Shown here piece after piece: positions 1 to 56,880 of a stretch of DNA of 64,000 nt. The notes below the pieces were generated by a model. It did no database searches, was not told the origin of the DNA, and saw only the letters and a program-made list of their open reading frames with translations. The DNA is from Amyelois transitella (Eukaryota; Arthropoda; Insecta; Lepidoptera; Pyralidae): positions 1,203,001 to 1,267,000 of the forward strand of contig NC_083505.1 of NCBI RefSeq assembly GCF_032362555.1. Direction: 5' to 3'. The position numbers and the translations under genes were made by a program. The first letter of the stretch is position 1. Each line of letters begins with the position of its first letter.

Positions 1-89
1 TCACCAGGTAAGCGTGGATAGCAATCATGACAGTGAACCCTGAATCGGGTAATTGGTGGTAAATCCAAAAAAAAGTAGTGTCAAGAACA

Positions 90-131
90 AATAAAACTCA
101 CAAGCTGTCCATTTACAATATTTTTTTTATT
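90..131. terminator. Facing polyadenylation signals at the left edge
   Basis: AATAAA occurs on the plus strand at 90-95 and on the minus strand at 126-131, only 30 bases apart. This is the arrangement expected where two convergent transcripts end. The plus-strand gene would lie off the left edge. The minus-strand transcript could be the Rab5 3' UTR or an unseen gene. Confidence 0.35.
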
Positions 132-2900
132 CAATATAATAATCTTAATAAATCCAAAATATTTACACAATACAAAAACATACAATGTTACCGCGCGTTA
201 GCATCCCGCCGCCGGTCAGTTACGGCTTCGACCACTTGTGGCGTCCGCCATAGCCGCCCAGCTTGACCGCCCGCTCCCAAACACGAAACTAGCGTATAAA
301 GAAACGGAGCTGCGGGGAATCAACCAATAGCAGCGCTCAATTGTTTGAAAACGTTGCGCGATTGGTTGATACCTACTCATCTCCGCTTGTGGTCGCCGCA
401 TTGTAAGGCCGTATTCACATCAATTTGTCAGCTCAAAACTAAAATAAGCCGAGTAGTAGATATCTTTAGGATACGAGTAGATGGTGTTTATACAAGAAAA
501 AAATTGTTTACTCGGCTGACAAAAAGTTGGCAACATTCCTTCATAAATCTTTATAGCAATATTGATGATTCATCAACAACGAGAATCGCCGAGAAAATTT
601 CATAATTGTATTTCCATTAATTACAATATATTTTTGAAATCCTAAAAGATATTATATATACGTGTAATACAATATTTAATCACATAAGCTATACCGGTCT
701 AGTCGTTTATAGGAATGCTCTTACCAACGATCGGCATTTAATTTTACAAGACAGTTGCTCAGGCGCGGGGAAGCGGGCGGTCACGAGCCTCCAATTTCCA
801 TATCCAAAATAAGATACATAACATCTATGTATAACAAAAGTTGTATAGTAACCGCAATCGATTTTACATGAAAACCTTATTGGACATTTTCTATAATTTT
901 CGGGATTCAGGGCTCACCAAATGCATTAACAATTTTGTAATAGGTTAATATTTATATCACAAATGAAGAATATCAAGTGTAGCATCGCTCAGTATCAAGA
1001 CATTTTCAGACAAAATTAATCTTCTCATTAGATATTACAGCTACAAGAACAAGCCTATAAAAAAATATTTAGCTATAAATATTGAGGCGATTACTCCTCG
1101 ACCATAGTTCCGTCTACTGATGTTTTTCTATGACCAATATTTTACATATTAAGTTTCGAAAACCCAGAAAGGACCCCTGTATGGAATGCGATATACAAAT
1201 ATAATGCTGAAACACTGATTAGCAAAACCACCAAGATACACTTTGCTTAAAATATATAATTATAAAGTTACATAAACATAACGTAGAACAATTTGTCCAT
1301 TGAATAATTAGTGTGTTTTAAAATAACTACAACGACCTAACTGAGACGTGTAAACCTAATATTAAATAACTATTGTTTGAACTAAATAAGAAATGCGTTT
1401 GTTCCTCCACATTTCAATATATTTTGGTGTGTGGGTCTACTGAAATTTGAATAAATAAATACTTTTTAAAAGCTTTTATTTTTTCAAATGATGTGTCAAT
1501 GTTGCAAACAATAACCTCAAATCAAGGCCGGATGTACCAATGTAAAATAGACAGAATTAATAACTTAATTAAAATTACCTACAATAATTTGGTTGCTGTA
1601 GCACAGAACGTACAGGATTGTTGTGTGACCTCAAGACGACAAAATATATCAAAGCGACAAGTACCTATACATAGTTACAGAACAGTCAAAACTCCGGTTA
1701 AACACGTTGACAAGAATCCAGAGGACATGTTTTCTCTCTTTTTCAAAATGTTTGGTCTTGTCGCTTGTATAAAAAAATATATTGAAATGTGCAGGAGAAA
1801 CGGCGGTGATGAAATTAGCCTAGGACCTTGTGGAAAACGATGAAACCACGATTGAAGCGATGCGAATACAACTCTTATCTACAAAGTAATAGGGTTTGTT
1901 TGCAATGAGACCGGCTCACAGACGCGGTATTTCACAGAGGTGACAGCTGTATTCAAGTTTCAAAATTCAATGTATAGCTTCATGAAGGAAAATCTTTTGG
2001 ACCGAAATTAATTGTTTTTTTTAAGTATTTATAATTTATTATAACAAATGTCAAATAAGATATCAAAAGCCAACATATTTTTATAAAGTTTCACATTTGT
2101 CATTCGGCAATATGACAATTCGCCAACCAATCAGCTAAACCAAAAAATCTTAATAATCGAAACAAGATACAGAAACTTTACTTCTAATGTAACTCTGCAA
2201 TAATATTAACATGCAAATAAAAATTTATTATGAACGTTGGCTGGCAACTGGCAACTTATTTGACATTTTGCTGTACAAAAATTAACGTTGACATATTTTT
2301 TTTTTATATTTGCTCCGGGATCTATGTTTCACGGCCTCGGCGTAAGTAAAATGAAAGCGAAGTGAGAATGAATCGCGAATGTAAATGCACCTTCACCACG
2401 TTTTGATAGTTATTGAAGCATATGCTTCTATGTGACGTATTACTGTAGATACTGCAGCTGGAAGTCATACGTTTTGAACGACGGCTGAAATGTCGTTGAT
2501 TTGAAAAATTCATTGAAGAAATAACATTGTTACATTAAATTTCAGTTTATTCGATGAGACCTTTAAATAAAACTCTTAAACTTTATCAAGGAATGTTCTC
2601 GCTATTTTGTGGGTGGCAATTTTAAAATGAGAACACTTAATTGTTTTATTTTTATTACTGTTCAATAGCCCTCATCTATATTATGCGTTGACTTTAACAG
2701 CAAGTAAGCGTATCCCTTCCGACTGCAGCATCTTTAACATAGCAACGACATTATACGGCCTAAACCGAAATTTCGTTATGTAACCCCTTAAACTACATGG
2801 GAACAGTGCAGCCGACTGCCTATAACATGATACAAACGAAATTAAATATATCTTTTATTACATCTCATTAAAATTACAAATAAGTTTTAATCTATTTATC
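132..2900. other. Unique AT-rich stretch, no gene recognised
   Basis: Nothing here matches a protein family I know. The longest open frame (1499-1843, plus, about 114 codons) has no recognisable motif and is probably chance. A GC-rich patch at 200-290 encodes nothing convincing. There are almost no SINEs, in contrast to the next 12 kb, which is compatible with untranslated transcript sequence. Confidence 0.4.
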
Positions 2901-2929
2901 ATATAGCGTTTTTTTTTTAATAATATTGG

Positions 2930-3190
2930 GTCGCCGCCGCCTGCGTTTCGTCCGAGAAGTTTGAAACCGGAACGTGGGTGACGGTTTCAATCTTTTCGGT
3001 TTGGCGCCAATTCTGATGTCACTATTTGGCGCGTGTTCTGACAGGTGTCAATGTCAATATAGTTTTAAACAGATGGCATTAGAATTGGCGGGTGGTGTGT
3101 GTGTGTGGGGCCGAGCCCGGGGCGCGCCGCAAGTCTCCGGCGGCGCCCCGACGCCGGCCCGCGCCGAGCGCTGTGTGGGACATTTCTGGA
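2930..3190. promoter_or_regulatory. CpG-rich stretch with two E2F-like sites
   Basis: The sequence is strongly GC- and CpG-rich inside AT-rich DNA. It contains the palindrome TTTGGCGCCAA at 3000-3010 and a second TTTGGCGCG at about 3025-3033, both fitting the E2F/DP consensus TTTSSCGC. A CG block (ggggcgcgccgc and similar) follows at 3110-3170. It looks like a promoter or CpG-rich first exon, but no adjoining gene is recognised. Confidence 0.4.
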
Positions 3191-3647
3191 AATTGCAATA
3201 TTGTTGTTTTAATGAATCGATTCCAAGATTATGTAATTCATTATTTCTTAAATTATGTATACACTTTTAGACGAACATAACGTAATCTGCAGAACGAAGC
3301 TAGGTTATACCAAAGTATTAGAGTTATTTTTTTGGAAAAGGATATCTTTTGAAAAGTTGTTTTATCATCGAAAACTAATATAAACGCGTGTGCATTTTTT
3401 CAAGTGCCTCAGACTAATGACTGAATGCCAGTGAGGGTTGGTACGCACTCTCCTTGGCTCACGAATGTAGGCATAGGCGTTGTCTAAACAGTTCTAACGT
3501 AGATTAGCGAACCCATTAAGTTCATTTTCGTACACTTTTATAGGGGAGTTTCGTACTTGTGAATGTATCACTTACCGCGACAGCCATCTAGCAATACTAG
3601 CTGCCCATTGTGAAGTAAAAAGTATTTTTTTAATGAACACCATTACA

Positions 3648-3793
3648 AAAACAATAAGGCTTTAGGCTATAACATCACGCTGCAACTATAAGGAGCAAAG
3701 AAATAATGGAAAATGTGCAAAAAAATTATGCATCCCTGAGTGCTTCAATGATGCCCATAATAACTATTTCACGCGGACGAAGTCACAGCTAGT
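3648..3793 (+). mobile_element. Truncated Lep1-type Helitron, 3' end
   Basis: The text (aacatcacgctgcaacta, cgcggacgaagtcacagctagt) matches the 3' part of other copies in the window and ends in CTAGT, the expected Helitron terminus. Confidence 0.65.
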
Positions 3794-3954
3794 ATTATTA
3801 TAAAAGTAAACAGGATGATTTTACCGAAAGGGTACTCAGCATAATGCTGGCTGTAAACAATCTTCGGCCGATCGCGAAGCCGAACTTCCGGCAGATTTCC
3901 CTTATTGGCATTGCTACGGACACTAGACTTTATCGAGGAGTAGAAATATAAAGG

Positions 3955-4330
3955 TGCCGTGTTGTTCCCGGCACCATTACAAAAAAGAATAGGACCACTC
4001 CATCTCCCACGGATGTCGTAAAAGGCGACTAAGGGATAGGCTTATAAACTTGGGATTCCTCTTTTAGGCGATGAGCTAGCAACCTGTCACTATATGAATC
4101 CCAATTCTATCATCAAGCCAATAAGCTGAGCGTGGCCCACCAGTCTCTTTTTATATATACGGGACAAATTACACAGATTGAGTTAGCCTCGAAGTAAGTT
4201 CGAAACTTGTGTTACGAGATACTAACTCAACGATACTATATTTTATAATAAATACTTATATAGTCTCTTCAAGACTGGTTACCCTACCCCGCTAGGGATA
4301 TAGACGTGATCATCATATGTATGTACGTAT
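3955..4330 (+). mobile_element. Lepidopteran SINE (TATG tail), interrupted by another SINE
   Basis: It starts gtgccgtgttgttcccggcacc and ends gggatatagacgtgatcatcat then atgtatgt. The element is split at 4150-4261 by a tRNA-related SINE piece flanked by the 8-bp duplication AGTCTCTT (4142-4149 and 4262-4269). Confidence 0.8.
4150..4261 (-). mobile_element. tRNA-related SINE fragment with 8-bp target-site duplication
   Basis: It carries the text acgggacaaattacacagat and gagttagcctcgaagtaag, shared with the copies near 8230, 13970, 43570 and 58205. It is flanked on both sides by AGTCTCTT. Confidence 0.75.
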
Positions 4331-4363
4331 AAACATGAACCGTACGTGTTACCTGTGAGAGTA

Positions 4364-7300
4364 TCACTTGCAGCAGCCGCCGGCGCGCGGCGCGTCGTTG
4401 TCGTTGAGCCGCCGCGCGCCCGCGCCCGCCGCGCCCGCCGACTCGCTCTTTGGTAACTTGTTCGCTGCGGGAACATGAGAAAGATCAATTGGTTAAAAGT
4501 CGATATACATACATACATACATATGGTCACGTCTATATCCCTTGCGGGGTAGACAGAGCCAACAGTCTTGAAAAGACTGAATGGCCACATTCAGCTATTT
4601 GGCTTAATGATAGAATCGAGATTCCAATAGTGACAGGTTGCTAGCCCCTCGCCTAAAAAAGAATCCCAAGTTTGTTAGCCTATCCCTTAGTCGCCTTTTA
4701 CGACATCCACGGGAAAGAGATGGAGTGGTCCTATTCTTTTTTGTATTGGTGCCGGGAACCACACGGCACAAAAGTCGATATGGTGACAAATTAGTGTGTT
4801 TGACAAACAGAAACACTCGTATTTTATTTATAAAATATATATATATGCATATGTTATACCGTGTGGTTCCCGGCACCAATACAAAAAAAAAATAGGACCA
4901 CTCCATCTCTTTCCCACGGATGTCGTTAAAGGCGACTAAGGGATAGGCTTACAAAACTTGAGATTCTTTTTTAGGCGATGGGCTAGCAACCTGCCACTAT
5001 TTGAATCTCAATTCTATAATTAAGCCAAATAGCTGAACGTGGCCATTCAGTCTTTTCCGCAAGGGATATAGACGTGGCCATATGTATGTATGTAATATAT
5101 ATACATTGAATGTGTAATAAAATGAAAAGATTTTTGCTTTATATATTTACATAAATAAATAGTCACAGTTTAGCCATGATATAATATAATATGTACCTTG
5201 ACTGCGGAGGTCAGATGGAAGTCGCTTCGTGTTAAAACCTATCTCGGCGACATAAATCTGGGCCTCCTCACACTCGACCATGCGCTTAGCAACTTATCAC
5301 TTAGTACCAAAATAGTAGAAAAAAAAAATAACAGCCACTTTTACTACCAAAATAGTAGAAAACTCACCAATAGCCAGGAAGATGTCGTTGACATTCATGG
5401 CGGTCTTGGCGCTGGTCTCCATGAAGAGCAGTCCGTTCTCGTCGGCGTACGCTTGGGCCTCCTCACACTCGACCAAGCCCTCAGCAACTTATCACTTACT
5501 ACCAAAATAGTAGAAAAAATAGCTGTCCGTTCTTGTCGGCGTACGCTTGGGCCTCCTCGAACTCGACCATGCGCTTGGCGGCCGAGTCACTTTTCCTACC
5601 AAAATAGTAGAAAACTCACCAATAGCCAGGAAGATGTCGTTGACATTCATGGCGGTCTTGGCGCTGGTCTCCATGAAGAGCAGTCCGTTCTCGTCGGCGT
5701 ACGCTTGGGCCTCCTCACACTCGACCAAGCCCTCAGCAACTTATCACTTACTACCAAAATAGTAGAAAAAATAGCTGTCCGTTCTTGTCGGCGTACGCTT
5801 GGGCCTCCTCGAACTCGACCATGCGCTTGGCGGCCGAGTCACTTTTCCTACCAAAATAGTAGAAAACTCACCAATAGCCAGGAAGATGTCGTTGACATTC
5901 ATGGCGGTCTTGGCGCTGGTCTCCATGAAGAGCAGTCCGTTCTCGTCGGCGTACGCTTGGGCCTCCTCACACTCGACCAAGCCCTCAGCAACTTATCACT
6001 TACTACCAAAATAGTAGAAAAAATAGCTGTCCGTTCTTGTCGGCGTACGCTTGGGCCTCCTCGAACTCGACCATGCGCTTGGCGGCCGAGTCACTTTTCC
6101 TACCAAAATAGTAGAAAACTCACCAATAGCCAGGAAGATGTCGTTGACATTCATGGCGGTCTTGGCGCTGGTCTCCATGAAGAGCAGCCCGTTCTCGTCG
6201 GCGTACGCTTGGGCCTCCTCGAACTCGACCATGCGCTTGGCGGCCAAGTCGCTCTTGTTCCCGGCCAGGGCGATCACTATCGATGGTGACGCCTGCCGCT
6301 GGAGCTCCTTCACCCAATTCTTCGCGCGACCGAATGTGTCCTGGAAAGAAATGGTAGATATAATTGAAATGTTTATCTATAAAGAAATGGATAGGGCCGT
6401 GTGGTTCCCGGCACTAATAGAAAAAAGAGCACGAGTAGGACCACTCCATCTCTTTCCCATGAATGTCGTAAAAGGCGACTAAGGGATAGGCGATGGGCTA
6501 GTAACCTATCACTATTTGAGTCTCAATTCTATCTTAAAGCCAAAAATAGCTGAACTTGACCTATCAGTCTTTTCTAGACTGTCAGCTCTGTCTACCCCGC
6601 AAAGGATATAGACGTGATTATATGTATGTATGTATGTAAGAAAAGATGATTGATACCTCGAATGTTAGCTGGAAGAAAATATTGTGAGTGGAACATTGAT
6701 AAGTCTGTTCTTATGACATCTAATGGAGCATCCACACATACCGCTGAATTATATATAACGCTCGATTACCCGCGGGCTTCCAGACCGCCTTGATATACTA
6801 TAAGGATGCATGTGTAAATGGCATGTATGTATATATAGGCCATAACGTTTATTTTAAATATTCTAATTAATTTGTTCTAATCGACTCTTTTGGATTGCGG
6901 ATGGTCTGCGGAGTTATGACCAGGCACTTCTAAAAATGAGTTTACCACAACATAACAATGAGAGAGAATACATGCGGAGTGGACACAGCCAACAGTCTTA
7001 AAAAAGACTGACGAGCCACGTTTGGCTTAATGATAGAATTGAGATTCAAATAGTGACAGGTTGCTAGCCCATCGCCTAAAAGGAGAATCCCAAGTTAAGA
7101 CATATCAAATTAGGTTAACCAACTTTCAGGTACTTATGAGATGAATGATGATTATAACTGAAATCATGACCCTGTCATCAACAAAGCTTTTCCTGACATC
7201 GTCCGCGTGTGCCGTGTGGCTCCCGGCACCAATGAAAAAAGAACAGGACCACTCAATCTCTTTCCCATGGATGTCGTAAAAGGCGACTAAGGGATAGGCT

Positions 7301-10456: not shown

Positions 10457-13400
10457 TATTTCTAGTTTCTGTGTTTTGTATCGTCAGTGTTTTTGTAGTT
10501 TTAAGGCATCCGCGGAAGACCAGCGTTGTAGCTCACGCTGCGACATATGCTGAGCGGAGACCTTTTTGGTGCTTTTTTCTTTTTTTTAATATTTCATTGT
10601 CTTGTACATTATGATATGTTGGTGTTCTATTGTACATTTAAATTGCACCGAATAAACATTTTTCTTTCTTTCTTTCTTTCTTTCAAACAATAGGACCACT
10701 CCATCTCTTTCCCATGGATGACGTAAAAGGCGCCTAAGGGATAGGTTTATAAACTTAGGATTCGTTTTTAGGCGATGGGCTAGCAACCTGTCACCATTTG
10801 AATCTCAATTCTATAATTAAGCCAAATAGGCTATTCAGTCTTTTCAAGACTGTTGGCTCTGTCTACCCCGCAAGGGATATAGACGTGACCAAATGTATGT
10901 CATAAAAGGCTACTAAGGGAATAATAGCACATATATCATAAAGATATCACGGATAAGAGCATCACTACATAGTATAAAACAAAGTCGCTATTTTAGTCTG
11001 TTTGTCTGTATGCTTAAATCTTTAAAATTACGCAACGGATTTTGATGCGGTTTTTTGTAACAGTTTGAATTTTGCACCCGTGCGAAGCCGGGGCGGGTCG
11101 CTAGTTAATAATAAACTCCAACTCAACATCGTCGCGCGGTTCCCCAGGCATTACGCCTAGCCTTGCGGAAGGCCTTTCAGTCTTTTCAAGACCGTTGGCT
11201 CTGTCCACCCCTTAATGAGATATAGACGCAATTATATGTATACAAAGTATGTAAAAAATTTAGTTAGGAAATTTATCCATTCATTTATTTATTCCGAAAC
11301 CGCCGCCGAGCTTGCATGAAAAGAGTTATGAATGTGGATGAAGCGAAGGAAGTATGCAGAGATCGTGGCAAGTGGAAAGAGGTAGTCTCCGCCTACCCCT
11401 CCGGGAAAGAGGCGTGATTTTATGTATGTATGTAAATTTATCATTACAATTACCTGTCACTATTGGAATCTCAATTCTATCATTAAGCCAAACAGCTGAA
11501 TGTGGCCATTCAGTCTTTTCAAGACTGTTGGCTCTGTCTACCCCGCAAGGGATATAGACGTGACCATATGTATGTATGTTATCATAACAATTGAACCTAT
11601 GACTAACGAATACTGTCGAGTTTTAAATAAGGCATCCTTTGTGAGTCGACCTCGGCCGGCCTAGGCAGAGGCGAATAGCGGGCCTTGGACAGTGCGAGCG
11701 AGGAAAACTTATGTAACCTAACCGAACCTAGGTCAATGACGCTGGCACAATCGGTTACTTACTATAATACCTACATCATTACATTTATACAAGTTCATTC
11801 GCCGCTCAAATTGCAAAGTAAAATGTCACCAAAAATCGGATACCACAAGAAAGACTTTTATTTTCATCATTCATTTTGATAACATTTTGCTTTTAAATTA
11901 TTTTTTAGCAGACACAATTAATAAGACCACTCAATCTATTTCGACTGGATGTCATAAGAGTGCCGTGCGGTTCCCGGCACCAATAGAAAAAAGAATAGGA
12001 CCACTCCATCTCTTTTCCATGGATGTCGTAAAAGGCGACTAAGGGATAAGCATATAAACTTGTGATATACAATGTATAGCTTATGAACGTGGCTTATCAG
12101 TCTTTGAAGACTGTTGGCTCTGTCTACCGCGCAAGGGATATAGACGTCATATGCATGTATGTATGTAGGTAAAATTGGCACGGCACGGTGTAGGTAATTA
12201 TGCGATGGAAACCATTCATAAGACCAAAAAAAAAAACAAACTTACTTGATTAGTTATATCATAAACGACGATGGCGGCCTGCGCCCCTCTGTAGTACATC
12301 GGTGCTAAACTGTGATATCTGCAACACAAAATTAACGTAGTTGTAATTATCTATACTTATATTATTTGCCGTGTGGTTCCCGGCACGAATAGAAAAAAGA
12401 ATAGGAGCACTCCATCTCTTTCCCATGTATGTCGTAAAAGGCGACTAAGGGGTAGAATTATAAACTTGGGCTTCTTCTTTTAGGCGATGGGCTAGCAACC
12501 TGTCACTATTTGAAACTCAATTCCATCTTAAAGCCAAACAGCTGAACGTGGCCTATTAGTCTTTACAAGACTGTCGGCTCTGTCTACCCCGCAAGGGATA
12601 TAGACGTAATTATATGTATGTATGTATGTATAAGATGTCGTAAAAGTCGACTTACTAATAGACTTATATACCTACTTTAGGCGACGGGCTAGAGACCTGT
12701 CACTATTTGAATCTCAGTTCCATCATTAAGCCATACAGATGAACGTTTCACTCATTTCAAGATTGTTGGCACTGTTTAACCCGCAAGGGATATAGACGTG
12801 TATGTACGTGTAATGCCAACATTGACGTGTATGCCAACGCTTTTGTTTATTACTTTAACCGTTTATCAAATGTCAAGAGTTTTGATCCAATGTCAAATGT
12901 AAGAAATGTCGTGATTCATTCACACTAGGTATAAGTAGTATCGACCTCACTTCCTCACATGGTTTATATTGCGTCGCACGTGTATGTATGTATGTCTGTG
13001 TCAATATATTCCGTTATCTAATCTTATTGTCTTGTAAATATGTATATTGTATGATAAAGGGATTCAATACTTTCTTCTTAAATGTGAATGTATATACATA
13101 TGTATTTACATTATATTTTATTTAGTGAATTCGTCGTACTTAAATCTCTATAAATGTTTGTTTGTTTGTTTGTAATATCTTTATTGCATAGAAATTTACA
13201 CAGTAACAAGAAAATAGTATATAGTTATAAAAGAAACAAATCACTTGCAATGGCGGACTTATCCCACGAAGGGATCTCTTCCAGTCAACCGGCAATGTAT
13301 TTCCAAAGCCTAAGCTATATTCTAATTTAACTCCGTTCAGTAGTTTTTGCATGAAATAGTAACGAACACAAATCATCATAAACTTTCGGATCTATAATAT

Positions 13401-16400
13401 CACTACATAGTATAAAACAAAGTCTCTATTTTAGTCTGTTTGTCTGTATGCTTAAATCTTTTAAATTACGCAACGGATTTTGATGCGGTTTTTTGTAACA
13501 AGTAGAGTGATTCAAGAGGAAGGTTTTTATGTATATTTTTTTCCGAATTTTGCACCCGTGCGAAGCCGGGGCGGGTCGCTAGTTAGTACATAATTTCAAT
13601 GATACAAAAAATGTCGTTCAGTCAATGTGTAAAAATTTATTCAGACAAAATTGATAAATTTCAGAGATACGTCCTTTATACCCCACTTGGGTCAAGTTAA
13701 ATACAGGACTCTGCAAGTTATATTTTCTAGGTGGGCCTACAGTAGGTGCATTTGATTTTCATCCTACGGTTATAATGTAAATGATTTACTTATCGGTAAA
13801 TATAAATAAACATATTATTATAATGCTTCATGTGACGCTGCCATTGAACTAGGAGATTATAAATATTAAGTTGGCAGAAAGAGATAATAAAAAAAACTGC
13901 ATGTTTGAAACCTTTTTTTCTTTGTTATGCCATTTAATATATATAAATAAATATAGGTATATACGGGACAAATTACACGGATTGAGTTAGCCTCGAAGTA
14001 AGTTCGAGACTTGCGTTACGAGATACTAACTCAACGATATTTTATAATAAATACTTATATAGATAAACATCCAAGACCCAGGCCAATTAGAAAAAGTTCT
14101 TTTCTCATCATGCCCTGGCCGGGATTCGAACCCGGGACCTCCAGTGTCACAGACAAGCGTACTACCGCTGAGCCACAGAAGCCGTCAAACCATTGTGACT
14201 GACGTTTAAGAAATGATTCTTTTGTAAAATGGCGATGGAAAATCAATCTTTTTCTCTTGTTCGTTGAAATACATACTTATAATCACGTCTATATCTCTTA
14301 CTGGGTAGACAGAGCCAACAGTCTTCAAAAGACTGAGAGACCGCGTTCAGCAGTATGTCTTGAAGATGGAATTGAAATTCAAATAATGACATGTTACTAG
14401 CCCGTCGCGTACAAGAATCCCATGTTCACTCAGTTGTCGTCTCCTTAGTCGACTAAGGGAATAAGCACTCTCATCTAGTGCAACCAGTGTAAACCAAGCT
14501 GGGTTAGATACCGTTGTGACAACGTCTCAGAGAGGTCAGACAGCGTTTGCATAAACATCGAATTACATACAAACATACATATGGTCACGTCTACATCCCT
14601 TGCGGGGTAGACAGATCCAACAGTCTTGAAAAGACTAAATGACCACGTTCAGCTATTTGGCTTAATGATAGAATTGAGATTCAAATAGTAACAGGTTGCT
14701 TAGCCATCGCCTATAAAAGAATCCCAAGTTTGTAAGCCTATCCCTTAGTCCCTTATTGGTCCTATTCTTTTTTGTATTGGTGCCGGGAACTACACAACCA
14801 AACATCGAATTGTACGGAAATTATTAACAAATGTGACCTTTTTTTATTTATTCCATGAGTAACAGTACATAGTAAGAATAGAGAGAGAGAGAGAAAGAGA
14901 CTACACCTTTCACTTGCCACGATCCCCGCATACTTCTTTCGCTTCATTCATAAACATTCATAACTCTCTGCATGCAAGGTTTCAGGTACTCTTGACCTGA
15001 TGATGATGATATAGCCAGAACGTTTTTAAATACAAATTATTTGAAAAAATACCGGTACTGCATTAGTATTTGTGTACTATTGATTCCGTTACCGGTACAA
15101 AGTACCGAGTGTAGGATTCCCGCTAAGGAGGGGAAAGCGCGTTAGTGTCCACTTCAACATTAGTAATCTTTACTAATTATATTGATTACGTTCGTTTACT
15201 AATTAATTAATGTACAAATATAATTTGTCGTAACTAGTTTTGTGATTGCGCAAGTATCATAAACAAATTATAGTAAATTAGATTAGATTGAGAATCATAG
15301 ATATTCTTTGTATTTTTTTTTGTCATTATTGTATTTTACGTAACTTTCATTAATAAATTATAGTAAATGAGCAGCGGAGAAAGTCCCCTTTGTTTAGACG
15401 TGAAATAGGGACAAACAAACTTCCAAATTTTTAATATGACAGCCTCTGTGGCGCAGAGGTAGTGGGTTCGAATCCCGGTCAGGGCATGATGAGAAACGAA
15501 CTTTCTTTGATTGGCCTGGGTCTTGGATGTTTATTTGAATCTCAATTCTATCTTAAAGCCAAATAGCTGAACGTTGCCTATCAGTCTTTACAAGACTGTT
15601 GGCTCTGTCTACCCCGCAAGGGCTATAGACGTGATTATATGTTGTACGTTGATTATAGATACCAATAAACCATGCAGATTCTATGTATGTCAGGGTCGTT
15701 CATAGTTTGTTTAAGGTTCAAGATTATTGCCACGTCAGTGAGCTATTTGCGTAGACAGTGTATTAAATCATATTCAGTTTCTAAGTTAACATAGAACACA
15801 ACATGTCTGGAGGGGGTTTAGCACTGGTCGGGCTTCCTATTAAGAATGGAAGTTGATTACGTCACGTGGAACGTTAATGAGAGATTTATTCCCAATCTCA
15901 ATTAAGTTATTTTAATACATACATACATATAATCACGTCTATATCCCTTGCGGGGTAGTTCAGTAATTTAGCTTTAAGATAGAATTGAAATTCAAACAGA
16001 GACAGGTTGTTAGCCCATCGCCTAAAAGAAGAATGCCAAGTTTATAGGACTACACCTCAGTGGCCTTTTACGACGTCCATGGGAAAGATATGGAATGGTC
16101 CTATTCTTTTTTCTGAACCGTGTGATTCCCGACACCGACACAATAGAAAAAGTTATATTAATAACTAGGTATCGCCAGCCAACAACAACAACAAAAAACA
16201 AACAACCTCTTCAGCTTTATAATATTAGTATAGATAAAGAATAGGTCACGACCAAATAGTTCTTACTATGAATAAAAAAAAAAAATAGTCTCACCTCTCC
16301 TGCCCCGCTGTATCCCATATCTCGAACTTCACAGTGGTGTCATCAAGGCAGACGGTCTGAGTAAGGAACGCCGCCCCGATCGTGCTCTCCTGGTACTCGT

Positions 16401-16542
16401 GGAACTGGCCCTTGACGAACCGGAGTACCAGCGAGGACTTGCCCACCGCGGACTCGCCGAGCAGCACCAGCTTGAACTGGCACACTTTGGTCTGGGGCGC
16501 GCCGTTTGGCCGCTGAACAGCGCCGCTCCTGTTTGTTGCCAT
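4364..16542 (-). CDS. Rab5: Rab5 small GTPase (4 coding exons)
   Basis: Rab5 is a Ras-superfamily GTPase that controls early-endosome fusion and endocytic traffic. Coding exons on the minus strand are 16295-16542, 12246-12318, 6124-6340 and 4364-4464. All have AG/GT borders and compatible phases, giving 212 residues (usual length about 215). Visible motifs are the P-loop GESAVGKS (residues 29-36), switch I with STIG (53-56), WDTAGQE (76-82), GNKSD (134-138), ETSAK (163-167) and a C-terminal GGCCK, whose cysteines are the expected geranylgeranyl sites. The ATG at 16542 lies three bases inside its exon, right after an acceptor, so a non-coding 5' exon must exist further upstream. The last exon encodes a Gly/Ala-rich hypervariable tail and is very GC-rich. 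Introns are crowded with SINEs. Intron 3 begins with tandem copies of part of exon 3. Identification is very secure; the transcript ends are not. Confidence 0.96.
4505..4769 (-). mobile_element. Lepidopteran SINE copy (TATG tail)
   Basis: Full-length inverted copy from the catacatacatac tail to gccgggaaccacacggca. It lies in Rab5 intron 3 about 40 bases upstream of the last coding exon, facing a plus-strand copy at 4859. Confidence 0.85.
4859..5094 (+). mobile_element. Lepidopteran SINE copy (TATG tail)
   Basis: Near full-length copy from ccgtgtggttcccggcacc to tatgtatgtatgta. With the copy at 4505-4769 it forms an inverted pair separated by about 90 bases. Confidence 0.85.
5198..5344 (-). 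repeat. Degenerate edge of the Rab5 exon-3 array joined to a dispersed repeat
   Basis: Positions about 5262-5344 contain further shortened copies of the array, including the sequence around the VEFEEAQ segment and two more copies of the taccaaaatagtag junction motif. Positions about 5200-5235 match, in inverted orientation, a dispersed lepidopteran repeat that also occurs near 8400 and 27160 (ggtcagatgg next to gtcgcttcgt). Confidence 0.6.
5345..6100 (-). repeat. 252-bp tandem array of a partial Rab5 exon 3 copy with donor site
   Basis: Three units of exactly 252 bp (5345-5596, 5597-5848, 5849-6100) abut the genuine exon 3 region, whose own copy starts at 6101. By eye the three units are identical. 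Read on the minus strand, each unit holds a short exon-3 piece (around the [12 protein letters not shown] coding segment), a junction motif ctaccaaaatagtag, then a longer piece running to the exon end and an intact GTGAGT donor. Copied exon ends fall at 5368, 5620 and 5872, matching the real one at 6124. The genuine exon differs from the copies at a few bases. A more degenerate remnant continues to about 5262. The near-perfect identity means either a very recent expansion or an assembly effect. Confidence 0.93.
6396..6639 (+). mobile_element. Lepidopteran SINE copy (TATG tail)
   Basis: Head gccgtgtggttcccggcac and tail tatgtatgtatgtatg are both present. It lies about 55 bases upstream of Rab5 exon 3. 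Confidence 0.85.
6974..7098 (-). mobile_element. Truncated SINE copy (TATG-tail family)
   Basis: It keeps the central segment (agccaacagtctt... to ...cctaaaaggagaatcccaag) in inverted orientation. Both ends are missing. Confidence 0.75.
7209..7450 (+). mobile_element. Lepidopteran SINE copy (TATG tail)
   Basis: Starts tgccgtgtggctcccggcacc and ends gacgtgaccatatgtatgt. A short internal deletion removes the gggctagcaacc segment. Confidence 0.85.
7576..7846 (-). mobile_element. Lep1-type Helitron, near complete
   Basis: On the minus strand it begins near atctatattaatatactatt then ataaagctgaagag, and ends in ...gcacagctagt (CTAGT at 7576-7580). The AT-rich start and the CTAGT end with no inverted repeats fit non-autonomous Helitrons known as Lep1. 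Confidence 0.7.
7861..8060 (-). repeat. Unclassified dispersed repeat
   Basis: The segment ccgaaagggtaccccctcag plus cataatgctggctg recurs near 3825-3860 (ccgaaagggtactcagcataatgctggctg). It is probably a retroposon 3' end; the family is not recognised. Confidence 0.45.
8061..8296 (+). mobile_element. tRNA-derived SINE, full length
   Basis: The head has an A-box-like tggcgtagtggtaa and a B-box ggttcgaatcc, as in tRNA-derived SINEs. The body continues through aacgaactttctctgattgg to the end shared by other copies (taactcaatctgtgtaat). It is not a tRNA gene: the body does not close into a cloverleaf. Confidence 0.8.
8304..8470 (+). mobile_element. Second dispersed SINE-like family
   Basis: The text ggctttagtcccggttgcat plus cctcaccgttctagagagga recurs at 26805, and inverted at about 61890. 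The downstream part (gactcccatctgacctcctc) recurs at 27165 and, inverted, at 5210. Confidence 0.65.
8724..8985 (-). mobile_element. Lep1-type Helitron, near complete
   Basis: Inverted copy closely matching 7576-7846, from atctatactattattataa to gcgggcacagct. The terminal CTAGT is lost. Confidence 0.65.
9015..9152 (-). mobile_element. Truncated SINE copy (TATG-tail family)
   Basis: Tail end (acatacatatagtcacgtct) to the centre (gtctaaaagaagaatccgaag) in inverted orientation. Confidence 0.75.
9510..10275 (+). pseudogene. LINE reverse transcriptase C-terminal fragment
   Basis: An open frame of about 255 codons encodes the thumb and C-terminal part of a non-LTR retrotransposon reverse transcriptase, with [17 protein letters not shown], a KLNYADVV-like segment and [14 protein letters not shown](P)PIR. 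The catalytic FADD/YADD part is missing, so the copy is 5'-truncated and cannot move itself. The frame runs to a TAA at about 10275, so the truncation looks recent. Confidence 0.8.
10276..10684 (+). mobile_element. LINE 3' UTR with 55-A tract and (TTTC)n tail
   Basis: An uninterrupted run of 55 A bases lies at 10397-10451. It is followed by a GC-richer block containing ggcatccgcggaagaccagc and by caccgaataaacatttttc with TTTC repeats. The tract may mark the end of a first element with a second one attached, or be internal to one 3' UTR. Confidence 0.65.
10963..11105 (+). mobile_element. Helitron-like element ending CTAGT (family 2)
   Basis: It starts near cactacatagtataaaacaaag and ends tgcgaagccggggcgggtcg then ctagt. 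It shares almost all of this with 13400-13583. It has no terminal inverted repeats. Confidence 0.65.
11176..11245 (+). mobile_element. 3' fragment of the TATG-tail SINE
   Basis: Short remnant from ttcagtcttttcaagaccgt to agatatagacgcaattatat. Confidence 0.55.
11310..11434 (+). mobile_element. 3' end of a LINE with (TATG)n tail
   Basis: The last codons of a reverse transcriptase reading frame are visible ([20 protein letters not shown] then PSGKEA stop), followed directly by ttttatgtatgtatgtaa. The tail equals that of the abundant SINE. A second copy lies at 14885-14990 (minus) and a 60-bp one at 43672-43731. Confidence 0.7.
11450..11579 (+). mobile_element. 3' half of the TATG-tail SINE
   Basis: Runs from acctgtcactattggaatct to gaccatatgtatgtatgt; the 5' half is missing. 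Confidence 0.75.
11866..12168 (+). mobile_element. SINE in a flank shared with 9386-9507
   Basis: The SINE begins at 11961 (tgccgtgcggttcccggcacc). The preceding 95 bases (ttttagcagacacaattaat and neighbours) match 9386-9477 with few differences. It is the uninterrupted counterpart of the split SINE. Confidence 0.75.
12368..12630 (+). mobile_element. Lepidopteran SINE copy (TATG tail)
   Basis: Full length from tgccgtgtggttcccggcac to tatatgtatgtatgtatgta. It begins only about 50 bases from Rab5 exon 2. Confidence 0.85.
12633..12812 (+). mobile_element. Second, 5'-truncated SINE copy in tandem
   Basis: Begins in the gatgtcgtaaaag segment directly after the preceding copy's tail and ends gggatatagacgtgtatgta. 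Confidence 0.7.
13400..13583 (+). mobile_element. Helitron-like element ending CTAGT (family 2)
   Basis: Second copy of the element at 10963, with about 40 extra bases (caagtagagtgattcaagag region) before the shared end gaagccggggcgggtcgcta plus gt. Confidence 0.65.
13952..14190 (-). mobile_element. tRNA-derived SINE, full length
   Basis: Inverted copy running from atacgggacaaattacacgg to the tRNA-like head, with B-box complement gggattcgaaccc and A-box region cgctgagccacagaagccgtc. Confidence 0.8.
14268..14475 (-). mobile_element. Decayed SINE copy (TATG-tail family)
   Basis: Inverted copy with many substitutions, from aatcacgtctatatctctta to ttagtcgactaaggga. Confidence 0.65.
14565..14803 (-). 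mobile_element. Lepidopteran SINE copy (TATG tail)
   Basis: Inverted copy, from tacatacaaacatacatatg to gtgccgggaactacac. Confidence 0.8.
14885..14990 (-). mobile_element. LINE 3' coding-end fragment
   Basis: The complement repeats the RDRGKW-type end seen at 11310-11434 (cacttgccacgatccccgca, acttctttcgcttcattcat). The TATG tail is absent. Confidence 0.6.
15437..15643 (+). mobile_element. Chimeric SINE: tRNA-type head on a TATG-tail SINE 3' half
   Basis: 15437-15532 is the tRNA-derived head with an internal deletion removing the anticodon side. At gatgttta/tttgaatctc it passes directly into the 3' half of the abundant SINE, which ends ggctatagacgtgattatat. Confidence 0.65.
15917..16145 (-). 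mobile_element. Lepidopteran SINE copy (TATG tail)
   Basis: Inverted copy from tacatacatacatataatca to gtgattcccgacacc, moderately diverged and lacking the central palindromic segment. Confidence 0.75.
16195..16240 (-). mobile_element. Lep1-type Helitron 5' remnant
   Basis: Contains ctcttcagctttataatatt then agtatagat, the inverted start of the Lep1 copies. Confidence 0.5.
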
Positions 16543-18700: not shown

Positions 18701-19830
18701 CTACCATTTCTTGATTAATTTCCCTTTAGCAAACGTGTCTCTAGACGTGATGACTAACAGTATCTGCCCTATCAGTGCGTTTCCTTCATATTTGACCATG
18801 CAATTTTATTCAATAGACGCCCTCCTCCGAATCAGCTGGAGGTCCTAAAAGCCTTTGGAAAAAGAATTTCCGTGATACGTTATTATGCTACAGTAGGATG
18901 CGAACTTCTTGTGCCAAAAACGGTGCAATTATGATCTCAAACACGACATTATACGATAAAATGACGCATTTACTGGATTATATTGGATATGAAAGACGTA
19001 CCCTCCCTGTTATTATTTCGCCGATGTACACTTTTCCTCGGGCGATAAATCCTCACGAGGTCGCCGTAATGCCGAAAATTTCATGAATTACACTCCTAAA
19101 TTGTGAAAAACATCGATTTTTACACAGCAAATTAGAAAATGTATCACTGAAATGAGAAATTACCACGAACAAACATGGAAGCGAGAGAGCGAACGAACGA
19201 GACGTTTCACAAATATTGTCTATGGTTAACTTACATACGTCACTTTTAAAAACTTGTCTATGTCTTGTCTATGAAACAGGTCTATGAGAAGAGTGCACGA
19301 AAAGCATTCAGTCTTAATGGAACTGCTACCTACCATATCAAACGTCTCGAATCTAAGGGCAAGCACAATCTATTCAACTCGTCCTTTGTATTTGTATTTA
19401 TTTCTCGAAATCATATAAAAATTACAATGATTAGATATTAACGGCTTAATAACTGCCCTGACGATAATAAAAAAGATTTGTGGTTTTATTCGTCTAGTTG
19501 TTTCTGAATCTTTATTCCAATCTGTTTGAATTTTCGGAGCTTAAGCCGAAAATTTTTCTTTTTACGAGTTTTATTGCATTTATATTTCTATGTATCTGTG
19601 TATAGGCTCCTAAACACTATTTTATGTTGTCAAATATTCAATTGATGGTGACAGGGTGACACTGACATTTGAAGTTGAACTGACTTACGTTTCCTGTGGC
19701 TGCGGGTTCGGTTGCACTAAGTTGAAATTTTACTTGAAACTACATTTCCATCAAATACAAATTTCTTTTCCTCTGCTGTTCGTTACCATCATCAGCCAAC
19801 TTTACGGGTCTGTATTAAAAATAACTTAAA
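18700..19830. promoter_or_regulatory. Gap between Rab5 and UTP23, probable divergent promoters
   Basis: Rab5 is transcribed leftward and UTP23 rightward from this repeat-free stretch. No coding sequence is recognised. Small frames at 18609-18848 and 18898-19086 carry no motif. The spacing suggests separate or divergent promoters, by position only. Confidence 0.35.
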
Positions 19831-21166
19831 ATGAAGATTACCAGATACAAGAAAGTCCAGAAGTACATGAAATTTTACTATAACAATTTCGGTTTCCACC
19901 AACCTTACCAGGTTTTAGTCGACGGCACGTTTTGTTTTGCTGCCTTCAAAGTGAGTTGAGTTCTACCTAAGAATACCTAGTTGTGGTTATTGCTTGCGGA
20001 CTGTTGACACTTGCGCCAACTGACCAGATCTTTAAATTGGGTACATACATTATAATCACGCCTCTTTTCTCAGGCAGGCATAGTCAAATCGAAGTTGTGT
20101 GTAGTCTTTTAAATAATATATTAAAATAAAACTGGAAATATGTATGTGCAGAATGGATAGCAAATACGTCCGCGTGGGTCGCTTGATAGACGTGGTGGAT
20201 GACGAGTGGCGGGCCGAGCAGCTTCCCCACGAGGACATTCAGGTGCCAGTGGAGGAACTCCCGGACCCAGAGGCAGATAGTGCAGACTCACACCTCACAC
20301 TCAAAGAGCAGAGCCTGCGTTGGCAAGAAAACTTTCCGGAGCCAGCATGCAATAATTAAAACTAGGTATTCTGCTTTATAAAGCTTCTTTTTTTTATTTA
20401 TAAACTTGAAATATGCTTAATATTTTCCTTTTGTAGTTAACTCAGTTGCTAAATATTAAGGTATTAAATCTTATGTTTTCATTTAATAATGACATGAAAT
20501 ATATAAATAATACATTATTTATTCCAGGAGCAAATCAATATCAGAGAACAATTACCAAAATATCTCAACAACCCAGTAAAACTACTAACAACAAGATGCA
20601 TCATAAAAGAAACAGAAAAAATATCAAAGAAAACACATGGAGCGCTAACTATTTTAAAACAGTACGGTATTCATGAATGCGGGCACAAGGAGCCTGTAAC
20701 CGGATCAAAATGCATTTTCTCTATGATTGGCAAAAACAATGAAAAACATTACATACTGGCAACGCAGGACCGCGACCTGCAAGAGAAGTTAAGATCTAAG
20801 GCTGGAGTTCCACTACTATATCTACATAACAAATCACCCACTCTTGATAAACCCTCCAAAGCGAGCTACGAAAAAGTTGGACAAAACTTTGAAACAGCCA
20901 CTATGTTCATAAGTCAAAATCAAAATGAAGTCCTCAAAAATATGAAAAAGGCTTTAGGTGTTGAAGAAAATGTGGAAGAACCAAAAGTTCCCATTAAGAA
21001 GAAGAAAACTCATAATCCCAACCCTTTGTCTTGTAAAAAGAAGAAATCTAAGAAGCCAATGGGTAAAGAAAGTAAAATAAAAGAAGGGAAAGTTAGAAAG
21101 AGGAAGAAGAATAAAATACCGAGGCATGTAAAGGAACAGTTGCAAAGTGCTCTCAGTAATTCTTAG
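19831..21166 (+). CDS. UTP23: UTP23, rRNA-processing PIN-like protein (2 exons)
   Basis: UTP23 is a nucleolar component of the small-subunit processome needed for early cleavages of pre-rRNA. Exons 19831-19950 and 20528-21166 join in phase 0 to give 252 residues, close to the human length. Exon 1 encodes the hallmark N-terminus MKITR...NNFG..PYQVLVDGTF, which includes the conserved aspartate of the PIN-like fold. Exon 2 continues with EQINIREQLPKYL, TTRCI, a Cys/His segment (HECGH...GSKC), LATQDRDL and GVPLLYLHNKSPTLDKPS. The last 80 residues are lysine-rich, as is usual for the family. A polyadenylation signal AATAAA lies at 21175-21180, just after the stop. The intron contains the complete APC13 coding sequence on the same strand. 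Confidence 0.95.
20153..20359 (+). CDS. ANAPC13: Anaphase-promoting complex subunit 13, nested in the UTP23 intron
   Basis: This is a 68-residue protein beginning MDSKYVRVGRLIDVVDDEWR. It matches the APC13 (Swm1) family in order and spacing: MDS start, GRxxDxxDDxWR, LPxEDIxVPxxELPxPE, then a KEQ...W segment. Human APC13 is 74 residues. APC13 is a small structural subunit of the APC/C ubiquitin ligase that stabilises TPR subunits. The coding sequence is intronless and lies wholly inside the UTP23 intron on the same strand. A possible acceptor (gtgcag) ends at 20151, one base before the ATG triplet. No canonical AATAAA follows closely; ATTAAA at 20355-20360 overlaps the stop codon. The earlier in-frame ATG-less extension (to 20144) is not needed. 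Confidence 0.9.
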   Translation: MDSKYVRVGRLIDVVDDEWRAEQLPHEDIQVPVEELPDPEADSADSHLTLKEQSLRWQENFPEPACNN

Positions 21167-21574
21167 GTTAAATCAATAAATAAGTTTAATAATATTTCAT
21201 TTAGTCTTTTTACTTAATCCCTTTGGTTACATATCCTGGTTTTTTTCCGAGTCATCCCGTGACCACAGTAGGAAAAAAACAGTATGATTTCGAATTAATT
21301 CCCCTTAAAACATATGCTGTATAATCATAATAACAGCCATAAGTCCACGGCTGGGGAAAGGTTCTGATAGCACTTGTTGAAAACAAACTGAATCCAATAT
21401 CAAGCCTAATGAACCATGTATAAAGTATAAATAGTACCTAAATTTATTATTTACTATCTACAAAAAGTGAAAAGTGCCCAATGTTCTTCCAAAGACTCTT
21501 AAATATACGCATAATTTCAAAAAAATTGGTTGAGTAGATAACGCTTGAATAGAAAACAAACAAGTAAATTAACT

Positions 21575-36217: not shown

Positions 36218-39200
36218 CTAGGCGGTGGTGACGGCGTCGTGTTCGGCGCGTGCGCTCTTGTTCTGCCGCACCAGCTCCGCACGTCGCTCCTGAGGGATTA
36301 AATGTAATCATTAATGGAAATATGAAATCATTACTTACTTGGAGTCAAACCAGTGAAAACCGAAGCTTCGTTTTTAAAAAAAATATAAGACCCTTTATTG
36401 ACGGTCTTATTTTTAAGTGAGCCTATATACCTATTTTAAGTATAACATTTCTACCCCCATTAGTTTGAATAATTAGAAAAAAGTCTACAAACGGCCTTCG
36501 CACGTGAAGTTTAAATTCAAATTAAAAACTTTTATTCATTATTATGGTACATTTCAACATCATAAATAACTTAAACTTTACCAAACCGTCGCTTCCAGAG
36601 CGTCAGTGCAGAAGAAGCTGTAACCAACTGCACTGCAGCATTTTTTCTACAAAAACTACAAACCTCTTTTTATCAAAGTGTACACAAACCTCCTTCTTGA
36701 CGAAGTCTAGTTTCTTCTGTATCTCCTTCTCCCTGTTCTGCTCGGCGGTCAGTAACTTGGTCTCAATCTCTTTGGAGATCTCCTCGACTTTGGCGGTGAC
36801 GGTGGAACGGGCTTCCTCGCGCTTATCGTTCTAACATCGAGAAAGATGAATGGTAAAATAATAAAAAAATTGAAATGATCCATGCTACATAAATGGTGTT
36901 ATACTCGCTTTTTTAACGGTTTAAAGTTTATCATTGACCAGAGGATGCCCCATGCGTCTCCGCCCGCGTTAACAATAAAATTACATAATTCCCATTCCCG
37001 CGGGAATTTTGGGAAATCCTCTCTTAGTGCACCCCTAGACCACATAAAGAACCTACACGCCTAATTGCAAGTCTCTAGACCCAGCGGTTTGGGCTGTGCG
37101 CTGATATGTCAGTCAGTCATTTACTTTTTTCTTTAATAAATTTAGATGGAAGATAATTATTAATAAAGACCTGTAATTGGCTCTTAAATGTTTAATATTA
37201 AAGCTAATAATTGTAACATTCGCTGTTGGTCATCCAAATATATAAAATAAAATAAAAACAGTTTACTTTTTTCAAACTTGTACGTGAATCAGGTTTTTTT
37301 TTTAATAAAGTTTAAAAAACGAGGATATCAGTAAACAAAATACAATGAAACAATTACACACAACTAAAATCATGAGACTTAAAAATACCAAAATCATGGT
37401 AGATACGTAACTAATTAATTGATCAAATATAAATTATGAATGTAAAATAATGAAGTAGGTAATAAAAATATGGATGAAAAATTAATGCGATACGTCAAAT
37501 AATTTTTAGATTCAAGTCAAATAAAAGTATTTATACATGAGATGTATACTTACACACATAGATGCGTGGTCTCAAATCTATACACCATTCGAATTTCAAA
37601 CGATTCAAGCGGTTGCAGCGCTGCTTCATTTGAACATAGCATACCATAGTGTACCAATGAAGCGTATAGCGCTGGAGAGTAAACTTATAAAGCGGTCGAA
37701 GTTGCGCGTCAATTTAGAATTTAGCTATCTGTCGGCCTGCTGCAGCTTGTCCTGGATGTCTCCAGCTGCTGGAAACGGTCGCTGACCAAGCTGTACAGCT
37801 GTAGAGGTACACTCACATAGCTGCGCAGTTTCTGTTTCTGCTCGGCCTCGATCATCAAGCGGCGATCATCGACCTACTGCAGCTTGTCCTGGATGTCTCC
37901 AGCTGCTGGAAACGCTCGTGGTCGCTGTCCAAGTTGTACAGCTGTAGAGGTACACTCACATAGCTGCGCAGCTTCTGTTTCTGCTCGGCCTCGATCATCA
38001 AGCGGCGCTCGGCCGCCTGCTGCAGCTTGTCCTGGATGGCGCTTTCGAGCTGCTGGAAGCGCTCGTGGTTCCCTGCTCGCACTTTACGGACTTGCTCCTC
38101 CTGGAAAAAGAAATGGATTTAAGGCTGGTTTCAGATTGGTGAGACTCACCGTTGACTTGCGCGTTTAGAAAATTTATTAGCATCATTTATTCGAATAACT
38201 AATAATAATAGGTCATAAACGGATCTTGCAATATGCAATTCACCTTGGGGCAAAAATACCTTTTATTAAGCAAGTAGGTATTTTTGTAACTTGATAACTT
38301 TTGGTCTGATTTTAATTAAATTTGGTATATACATAGGAAAGATTACTTCAAGTTCCTTAGGTATCGATCGGTAAATAAAAGAAAAATGATCATGTAAAAT
38401 TATACGACTGTAGTACACATGTTTTTCACTAGATGGCGCTGAAAATAATCGTGGCATTTACGTTCATAAGTCACGGCTAAATCTTAATCAATTCTAGCAA
38501 AAGAGACTCTGTCACAGCAAAAATAGGAAGGTTCCCATTTAGTCCTATATCTAACTGGTGGAAACCTTCAAAGGTAATAGAACTCACATGCTCGCGAAGG
38601 CGCTCCAACATCTTCTTGATGTTCTCGTCGCGTTTATCCGCGGCGGTGGTCATCTTGTCCTCGATCGCCTTGTACACCTCCGCTGTCTGCTGCTCGAGAG
38701 TCAACCTGGAAGGTCAAAACTAAACCTTAATTATGTCCAAAGCTGAGGAGAGGCATATGTCCAAAGTAATAGACAAACGGATGAATAATAGACAAATCGG
38801 TGATACAACTAAATTTTCAAACAAAAAAATAAAGCAATGTATAAAATTACGTAAACCTCGTGAAAACCAATTGACTTTCGCCAGCGAGCATGTCTTGTCT
38901 CCTGCTCTGACCCTACAGATGACAGTCTTAGGCCCGAGATATAAACACTAGCATACTCGTAACGGATATATAACCTCCTTCCAAATGGTCCTTCATCCGC
39001 GCCATCACCTCGTTGATGCCTCACGCTTCACTTCATGGATCTCCATCTTGGTATCGGAGACCTTCCCATCTTTTGCCATACACTCCTCAAGAACCAATAC
39101 ATCAGCCTATCACAGTTAAATGTGCTACGCCAATAACAGCGAATGTATTAATTTCTGCAAATTGCTGTTCATCAGGCAGAACACCCAGCCTGGCGGAGGA

Positions 39201-55014: not shown

Positions 55015-56835
55015 TTATGTCACAATATCTTTTAAAAAGTCATTGACGCTATAATAGCACTTATCAGTTAGTAATAATTTTATTTCCTTTTTAAATGTTA
55101 CTATGTCCATTTTTTTTAGATAATCCGGTAATTTGTTAAAAATAATAGGAGCCATACCAATCACACTCTTGCCAAGCATAGCAGTCTTATGACCTCCAGT
55201 TGCCAGTTTTAGTTGATATTGGGATCTCAAATTATTTGGTCTCTTTCTAGTGTCTATTAATTTTTGAAATAAGTGCGGATTAGATTTAACAAAAATACAT
55301 ATTTCCATTATATAAACACAGGGTAGTGTTAAAAGTTTAAGTGTTTTAAAAATAGGTACACAACTTTCCATTGACTTTAGTCCACACATTGATCTGAGAC
55401 ATCTTTTTTGAGCTTTAAATACTTTGTCATTTTCACGTGAGTTACCCCAAAATATTACACCATAACTTAGATGTGGCGTTACCATACCGTGGTAAGCTAC
55501 AAGTGTAACATCCAATTTGACTTTTTTGGATAATCTGAATAATGCATAAGCTGATTTATGTAACTTTTTACATATTGATTCAATGTGAGAATCCCATGTT
55601 AATTTGCTGTCAACTTTAAGTCCTAAAAATCTAGTTTCTTGCACTTCTTCTATGTTCAGATTATTGTATTTCACACAAATATTTAAAGGTAGTTTTTTGT
55701 TGTAAAAATGCATTAGTTTTGTTTTTTGCAAATTGATTTTCAAATTATTTATGTCTAACCATTTAATTATATCATTTAATGTATTATTTACGTCCAATTC
55801 ATAACAATTCGGGTCAACGCATTTTATCACAGCAGTACTGTCATCAGCGAATAAAACCATATTTTGCTTAATGTTCAAAGGCAATATATAAATGAGGAAC
55901 AGTAACGGTCCTAGGACACTTCCTTGAGGAACGCCAAATCTGTTTAGTTTATAGTTTGACACATTATTTGTTTCTTGTTTTGTTTTATGACATAGACTAG
56001 TTAATTTTACACATTGCATTCTATTATTTAAGTAAGACTTTATTAAGTTTAATACATTTCCTCTTATTCCATACTTATCTAATTTGTTTATCAGTCTTTT
56101 ACGATTGACATAGTCAAAAGCTTGTGTCATATCAGTATACATAACACAAACAGGATTACGATTATCTACATTTTTCATAACAATTTCAATTAAGTCATAT
56201 ATTGCCATATTGATGGTTTTGTTTTTCCTGAATCCCTTTTGTTCGTCGCATAAAATATCATATTTCGTCAAGTAATTATAAAGAGCGTTGTACAAGTATT
56301 TTTCAAATATTTTTGTAAAGATAGACCCTAGCGCTATTTGTCTATAGTTGGACATGCGTTTTTTATCTCCTGTTTTATGGAGTGGTATTATAATTGTCGG
56401 CTTTAAATTATCAGGATAAACACCAGCCGATATAGACATATTTATCAAGTGAGCTAAATGATCTGCAATATCCTCGCAGACAAACTTTACAGCTTTTGTG
56501 GAGATATCATCATATCCAGTACTGTTGGTATTTTTTAATGTTTTTATAATTTTAATAATTTCTTCGACCATAATTGGCAACAAGAACATAGACTGCGGTT
56601 GAGCCTTTAGATCTACCTTATCTTGTAAGTTATTAGAGGAATTTTCAATTTTGTCAATAAAATAAGTATTAAAAGTGTCTGCCATTAAAATTGGTTCTGA
56701 TACTATGTTTCCTTCATTTTCAATCTCTAAAATAAAGTCTTTTTTGTTATTTTTATTATTTATAATTTGCCAAGTTGCCTTGGATTTATTTTGGGAATTA
56801 CTAATATATGAAGAATTTTGAACCCTTTGTGTCAT
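55015..56835 (-). pseudogene. LINE ORF2, reverse transcriptase half
   Basis: A 606-codon frame covers the linker and the whole reverse transcriptase: the TGYDDIS block, KPTIIIPLHKTGD, YRQIALGSIFTKIFE, DMTQAFDYVN, GVPQGSVLGPLLF, the catalytic VLFADDS (about 55840), and the ETRFLGLKVDSKL block. Typical of CR1/Jockey-group elements. It is separated from the endonuclease half by about 45 bases in another frame. Confidence 0.88.
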
Positions 56836-56880
56836 ATTTATAATTTTTTTTAATTTTTTGGAATAATTAACTAAGTTTAT

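Follow-up and report, generated by a model that had tools for sequence, protein, structure and literature searches.

Tandem copies of an exon end and its splice donor in the Rab5 gene of Amyelois transitella, and related copies at other genes

How did the end of a coding exon, together with its splice donor, come to stand three more times in the intron that follows it, and what becomes of these copies when the transcript is spliced? The question arises in a 64-kb window of the A. transitella genome (the whole stretch of 64,000 nucleotides that was analyzed, to which coordinates refer unless another locus is named), in which a near-perfect 252-bp tandem array had been predicted beside exon 3 of a Rab5 gene. 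Here, we describe the anatomy of this array and trace copies of the same kind at other genes. We consider it probable that a tandem duplication spanning the donor was followed by higher-order amplification, that the copies are spliced out, as predicted from their order, and that the process is common to other exons of the genome.

The gene lies on the minus strand. Exon 1 (coding part, 16295-16542), exon 2 (12246-12318), exon 3 (6124-6340) and exon 4 (coding part, 4364-4464, with the GGCCK end) were located by tblastn and, when joined, give a 212-aa open frame; for exon 3, the splice contexts agree as well, with the acceptor side at 6340 and the donor GTGAGT at 6123-6118. The product matches human Rab5 structures in the PDB, with Rab-5B as the top match (E 7.1e-103), confirming the proposed identity of both gene and exon. 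This four-exon coding sequence is intact without any copy from the array. A SINE-like interspersed repeat, present in many copies on both strands, flanks the array on both sides (4859-5094, 6397-6634, 6973-7096 and others). On the plus strand, an open frame of 369 aa (5180-6289) runs antisense through the whole array. We rejected it as a gene and read it as the antisense of GC-rich coding repeats; it stays open because each 252-bp unit is a whole number of codons. Elsewhere in the window, two long minus-strand frames of 621 and 356 aa (55015-57951) resemble a LINE reverse transcriptase and endonuclease.

The array lies in the intron that follows exon 3. As the predicted periodicity implied, 5344-5935 is identical, base for base (592 of 592), to the sequence 252 bp further on, so that 5344-6187 (844 bp, 3.35 units) is perfectly periodic; with 592 identical bases, this periodicity is not due to chance. 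Past the perfect stretch stands a single mismatch, 5936 versus 6188, followed by 32 more matches (5937-5968), and the last period enters the true exon, where 6125-6187 and 6189-6220 agree and 6188 differs. Tandem Repeats Finder (TRF) delimits the array at 5336-6231, with a period of 252, 3.6 copies and 99% identity. The copied exon ends at 5368, 5620 and 5872 lie at the anticipated 252-bp spacing from the true end at 6124, and all four read TTG/GTGAGT.

As a description of the unit, the original prediction was incomplete. Each 252-bp block is a higher-order unit of two sub-units, A (155 bp) and B (97 bp), which in a MAFFT alignment are copies of one segment running from the 3' part of exon 3 across the donor to nt 24 of the intron. 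The two exon pieces foreseen in each unit are thus there, and the rearrangement ascribed to them is not: both are the same segment, one of them internally deleted. Sub-unit A, whose 5' edge is diverged, reaches from the 3' part of the exon through GTGAGT into the start of the intron; the acceptor and the 5' part of exon 3 are missing from it. In sub-unit B, an initial fragment of exon 3 matches the exon at 91% over 77 bp, and an internal deletion has removed both the GTGAGT donor and the exon end. Minisatellites and satellites with higher-order repeats contain two diverged sub-units that have been co-amplified to near identity. The same organization is found here, with A and B 82% alike over 97 columns and the 252-bp blocks 100% alike; unlike those repeats, the Rab5 repeat includes a donor and some of the sequence of the live coding exon to which it belongs.

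In gene direction, all on the minus strand, the true exon is followed by sub-unit B (6003-6099), A (5848-6002, donor exon end 5872), B (5751-5847), A (5596-5750, exon end 5620), B (5499-5595), A (5344-5498, exon end 5368), a 40-bp remnant flanked by two copies of the joint motif (5304-5343) and an older, decayed exon-3 copy without a donor (about 5237-5303). The first B was placed by alignments including MAFFT, the first A by the period, MAFFT and its splice contexts, the later B copies by the perfect period, and the later A copies by the period and their splice contexts. The remnant, placed by alignment and MAFFT, is probably a sub-unit with a larger internal deletion, judging from its sequence. 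The oldest copy was recognized by tblastn (5290-5237, 72% amino acid identity over 18 aa, E 0.003) and by DNA alignment; the interval 5259-5324 is 94% identical to the A copies. These two decayed copies (~5237-5343) had not been foreseen, nor had a second donor-like site, GTA/GTAAGT, with exon ends at 6004, 5752 and 5500.

Sub-units A and B each end, in gene direction, in the same 15-mer, TTTTCTACTATTTTGGTAG. The recurrence of a motif at the joints had been predicted correctly: in the window, CTACCAAAATAGTAG has eight matches at ≤2 mismatches (seven exact, one with a single mismatch) versus 0.18 expected. It is the intron end of the duplicated segment and not a separate element. In the 327-Mb assembly, the exact 15-mer occurs eight times, seven of them in the Rab5 array and one elsewhere, and the reversed control pattern occurs zero times. 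That seven of eight exact copies lie at Rab5 is evidence against a mobile-element end, and we discarded the idea that the 15-mer is the end of a transposon. Likewise, a genome-wide DNA search returned two matches, both at the Rab5 locus; on this basis we rejected dispersed copies of this exon, and the repeat is set apart from mobile elements.

What would splicing make of the copies? Because the true exon comes first in the order, its donor is still usable, and we infer that the copies leave with the intron if this first donor is used. By consensus scan, from which all acceptor and donor calls at this locus derive, the array holds a cluster of acceptor-like AGs and of copied donors of the GTGAGT and GTAAGT types. 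Extension of exon 3 to 5872 is predicted to add 252 nt and a stop 124 nt ahead of the junction, a distance that makes the product a likely target of nonsense-mediated decay. Insertion of A as a cassette (131 nt) is predicted to shift the frame, with a stop at codon 214, 27 nt ahead of the last junction; such a stop might escape decay. Cassette B (96 nt) and the extension to 6004 (120 nt) are predicted to remain in frame and stop-free and to keep the CCK end. Neither cassette replaces exon 3 in frame, A because it shifts the frame and B because it is in frame as an insertion only.

Exon-end copies were considered unusual in the original prediction, and Rab5 is indeed an extreme case; it is not a lone oddity, however, since copies recur at other genes of the genome. 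Two lie in the same window, at exons assigned to the stathmin family (PF00836) and read on the minus strand. Here, an array (37732-38069; TRF and alignments; period 143 bp, 2.4 copies, 88%) covers the end and donor of the exon at 38100-37960, with copy 1 retaining the donor and copy 2 lacking it. In the next intron from the exon at 39492-39277, alignments place a decayed copy downstream (38975-39055, 87% over 85 columns), which has lost its donor.

Beyond the window, the closest parallel is the DLIC gene (PF05783). Its array, at 19684-21258 of a joined stretch (L005 9684 to L025 1258), has a unit of ~325 bp in 4.9 copies at 95%. In each unit, a full exon end with GTGAGT is paired with a shorter copy that carries a GTGAGT as well, and the true exon comes first; it is the Rab5 design. 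A Rab11-like gene (L028 737 to L047 ~290) has an exon with three downstream copies, CC2D1 (PF21528) has an exon copy in its downstream flank, and so does a putative coding segment in L003 that has no Pfam match. An R-Ras-like exon (L043 1060-1158; PF00071 match C12:180880-181026) is followed by a decayed partial copy that includes the donor (1208-1318). In L023, a calumenin-like EF-hand exon has a 78%-identical copy upstream, and its end and donor form a perfect 66-bp direct repeat (6019-6084 and 6527-6592) with a SINE-like stretch between, which might be an unusually long target-site duplication. Finally, an array of ~137 bp at L025 3551-4876 contains eight diverged exon-start copies upstream of one that is still open. 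The names Rab5, stathmin, DLIC and CC2D1 follow PDB or Pfam matches, and the Rab11-like, R-Ras-like and calumenin-like genes are named after the resemblance of their sequences. Among 11 loci with copies, the copies are downstream at nine (Rab5, two stathmin exons, DLIC, CC2D1, L003, the Rab11-like and R-Ras-like genes and the calumenin-like 3' copy) and upstream at two (the calumenin-like 5' copy and the L025 array). These 2 of 11 rule out a strict downstream-only rule, and the donor boundary is therefore not the sole boundary affected.

The frequency of such copies was estimated from exons chosen regardless of repeats, within ~290 kb of DNA sampled beyond the window from this one assembly. 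Copies were found at 4 of 93 exons or putative exons, all four downstream (DLIC, CC2D1, L003, Rab11-like); the R-Ras-like exon, in the flank of L043, was kept out of this count. Three come from a position sample of 20 stretches of 10 kb (200 kb), in which 3 of 59 putative coding segments, all with the copy downstream (DLIC, CC2D1, L003), had a flank copy at a bit score of at least 32. The 59 segments are ORF stretches picked by a home-made codon-usage score trained on 13 seed exons, with flanks of up to 2000 bp. The fourth, Rab11-like, is the one case among 34 small-GTPase exons selected from 120 PF00071 matches by place and profile range, with their 600-bp flanks unseen. Because the other 33 had no copy within 600 bp, exon-end copying is common rather than universal. 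A control with foreign flanks at the same score gave eight pairs, against a denominator of 15,312 that includes same-record pairs, which the numerator excludes. In a laxer rank test, nine downstream and five upstream flanks ranked <0.02 among 168 tests, some of them reflecting stathmin's own coiled-coil repeats; four array-copy segments were excluded from the rank tests and from the exon counts. Of six local duplications in the 200 kb, three hit exons (binomial p 0.003 at an estimated coding fraction of 5.5%, rising to 0.02 if this fraction is doubled and to 0.06 if it is tripled), a thin case for exon enrichment. Local tandem duplications in which no coding sequence was recognized also occur, at L012 3408-3776 (184 bp, 100%) and L015 5163-5858 (118 bp, six copies, 95%; also 97 bp). 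Among the PF00071 matches listed (120 matches; 150 of 161 candidates scored), Rab5 alone has near-intact neighboring copies, and arrays that intact therefore look rare.

We suggest that a local tandem duplication captured the stretch from the 3' part of Rab5 exon 3 through the donor to nt 24 of the intron. Older copies would then have decayed through substitutions and internal deletions, giving sub-unit B, the 40-bp remnant and the copy at 5237-5303. Later, the adjacent B+A pair would have been amplified to three perfect copies through unequal exchange or replication slippage, processes that we infer and that may also have preserved the likeness of the copied exon end to the true one. Other exons of the genome have probably undergone the same process. 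Under this scheme, the likeliest status of the Rab5 copies is that of tolerated, spliced-out decoys homogenized with the true exon; a putative role in splicing is possible.

Such a role is the most serious competitor of this scheme. The copies could be functional, with arrays of decoy or poison exon ends stalling splicing or yielding unproductive or altered mRNA and with selection keeping the donor region; we regard this as unlikely. Where a copy retains the donor, its positions -40 to +20 agree with the true exon at 57 to 60 of 60 at four genes (Rab11-like 60, 60 and 60; Rab5 A 60; stathmin copy 1 59; DLIC 59, 60, 59 and 57), whereas neighboring 20-nt bins fall to as low as 13/20. Across the Rab11-like exon and its three copies, none of the 100 columns between -60 and +40 is variable, versus 20 of 85 outside (p 4.5e-8), and the three intronic copies alone give 0 of 100 versus 15 of 86 (p 4.6e-6). 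At DLIC, 4 of 142 exon sites vary versus 16 of 95 in the intron and B part (p 2e-4); conservation here extends over the entire exon part rather than the donor only. Moreover, donors in the copies are preceded by acceptor-like TTTTCTACTATTTTGGTAG or T-rich tracts, and the Rab5 products predicted from B or from the extension to 6004 are in frame and stop-free and retain the CCK end. Such near-perfect stretches beside diverged edges differ from what uniform neutral decay would give and call for gene conversion or selection. However, the limits of the donor core were set after the alignment had been inspected, the DLIC intronic copies alone reach only p 0.03, and the donor region is gone in Rab5 B, the decayed Rab5 copy and stathmin copy 2 (25, 0 and 3 of 60). 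Conversion by a constrained true exon predicts a similar pattern, and we favor conversion or exchange over selection for the identity around the donors. A bolder version, in which the genome grows exon-end decoy arrays that selection keeps near-identical at the donor for their effect in tuning the splicing of housekeeping genes (Rab5, Rab11-like, DLIC, stathmin), and in which B could add a 32-residue insert before the intact prenylation tail of Rab5, is a speculation to which we give still less credence.

Two further readings concern how the repeats came to be in the sequence at all. The identity of the copies had been taken to imply recent expansion, homogenization or an assembly artifact. 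The perfect identity of 844 bp is what an assembly or polishing error in the repeats or their copy number could leave behind, but diverged remnants adjoin the Rab5 array, and other genes hold copies 75-96% identical to their exon, which misassembly could not produce. Older, diverged copies built alike, both at Rab5 and at other genes, make an assembly origin very unlikely, with the unit count at Rab5 being that of the assembly; recent expansion or homogenization stands. Transposon-driven copying, e.g., by long target-site duplications at SINE insertions, would fit L023, where the 66-bp repeat brackets a stretch resembling a 5'-truncated SINE, and the related interspersed repeats on either side of the Rab5 array (4859-5094, 6397-6634). 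No such element lies between the Rab5, DLIC or stathmin copies, however, and the unit joints vary from gene to gene; of all the readings, we find this the hardest to credit.

How does local duplication with later homogenization, the reading we prefer, relate to known processes? Tandem exon duplication is a known process (PMC9013439; Exonize, PMC12343006), and the mechanisms nearest to the Rab5 array are intron gain by tandem duplication and splicing decoys. Exonize, as outlined there, searches introns for exonic matches, including degenerate exons, and counts partial matches; a full-exon duplication is an exon duplicated in its entirety (PMC12343006). The Rab5 copies resemble this process, so described, in that a piece of the gene with coding exon sequence is duplicated beside itself, and differ in that only the 3' part of the exon, the donor and the intron start are repeated, in higher-order arrays. 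Having neither a whole exon nor an in-frame replacement, the array represents neither full-exon duplication nor mutually exclusive exons. In intron gain as summarized in PMC2891723, a duplication inside an exon yields a new intron through an AG/GY motif. Tandem duplication at Rab5 likewise takes in exon sequence and splice motifs; unlike the process outlined there, it spans an existing exon/intron boundary and needs no new intron, the existing donor being included and the four exons coding without it. Decoy exons in intron retention are described in PMC8706089, which cites Parra et al. 2018, as non-coding intronic segments with splice sites, often clustered. The Rab5 intron resembles them in having clustered splice-site-like sequences, as called by consensus scan, and differs from that description in that its segments were recently copied from the neighboring exon's end. 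A literature search over titles and the beginnings of abstracts found no paper describing donor-spanning exon-end arrays.

Catalogs of exon duplication usually deal in whole exons. If the pattern holds at a few percent of the exons in a genome, partial, donor-spanning arrays would be a major and overlooked supply of decoy splice sites, and would also furnish candidate poison exons and recombination partners for live exons. In such arrays, one can ask by natural experiment how the spliceosome comes to use the first among identical donors, and whether gene conversion passes between a coding exon and the copies in its intron.
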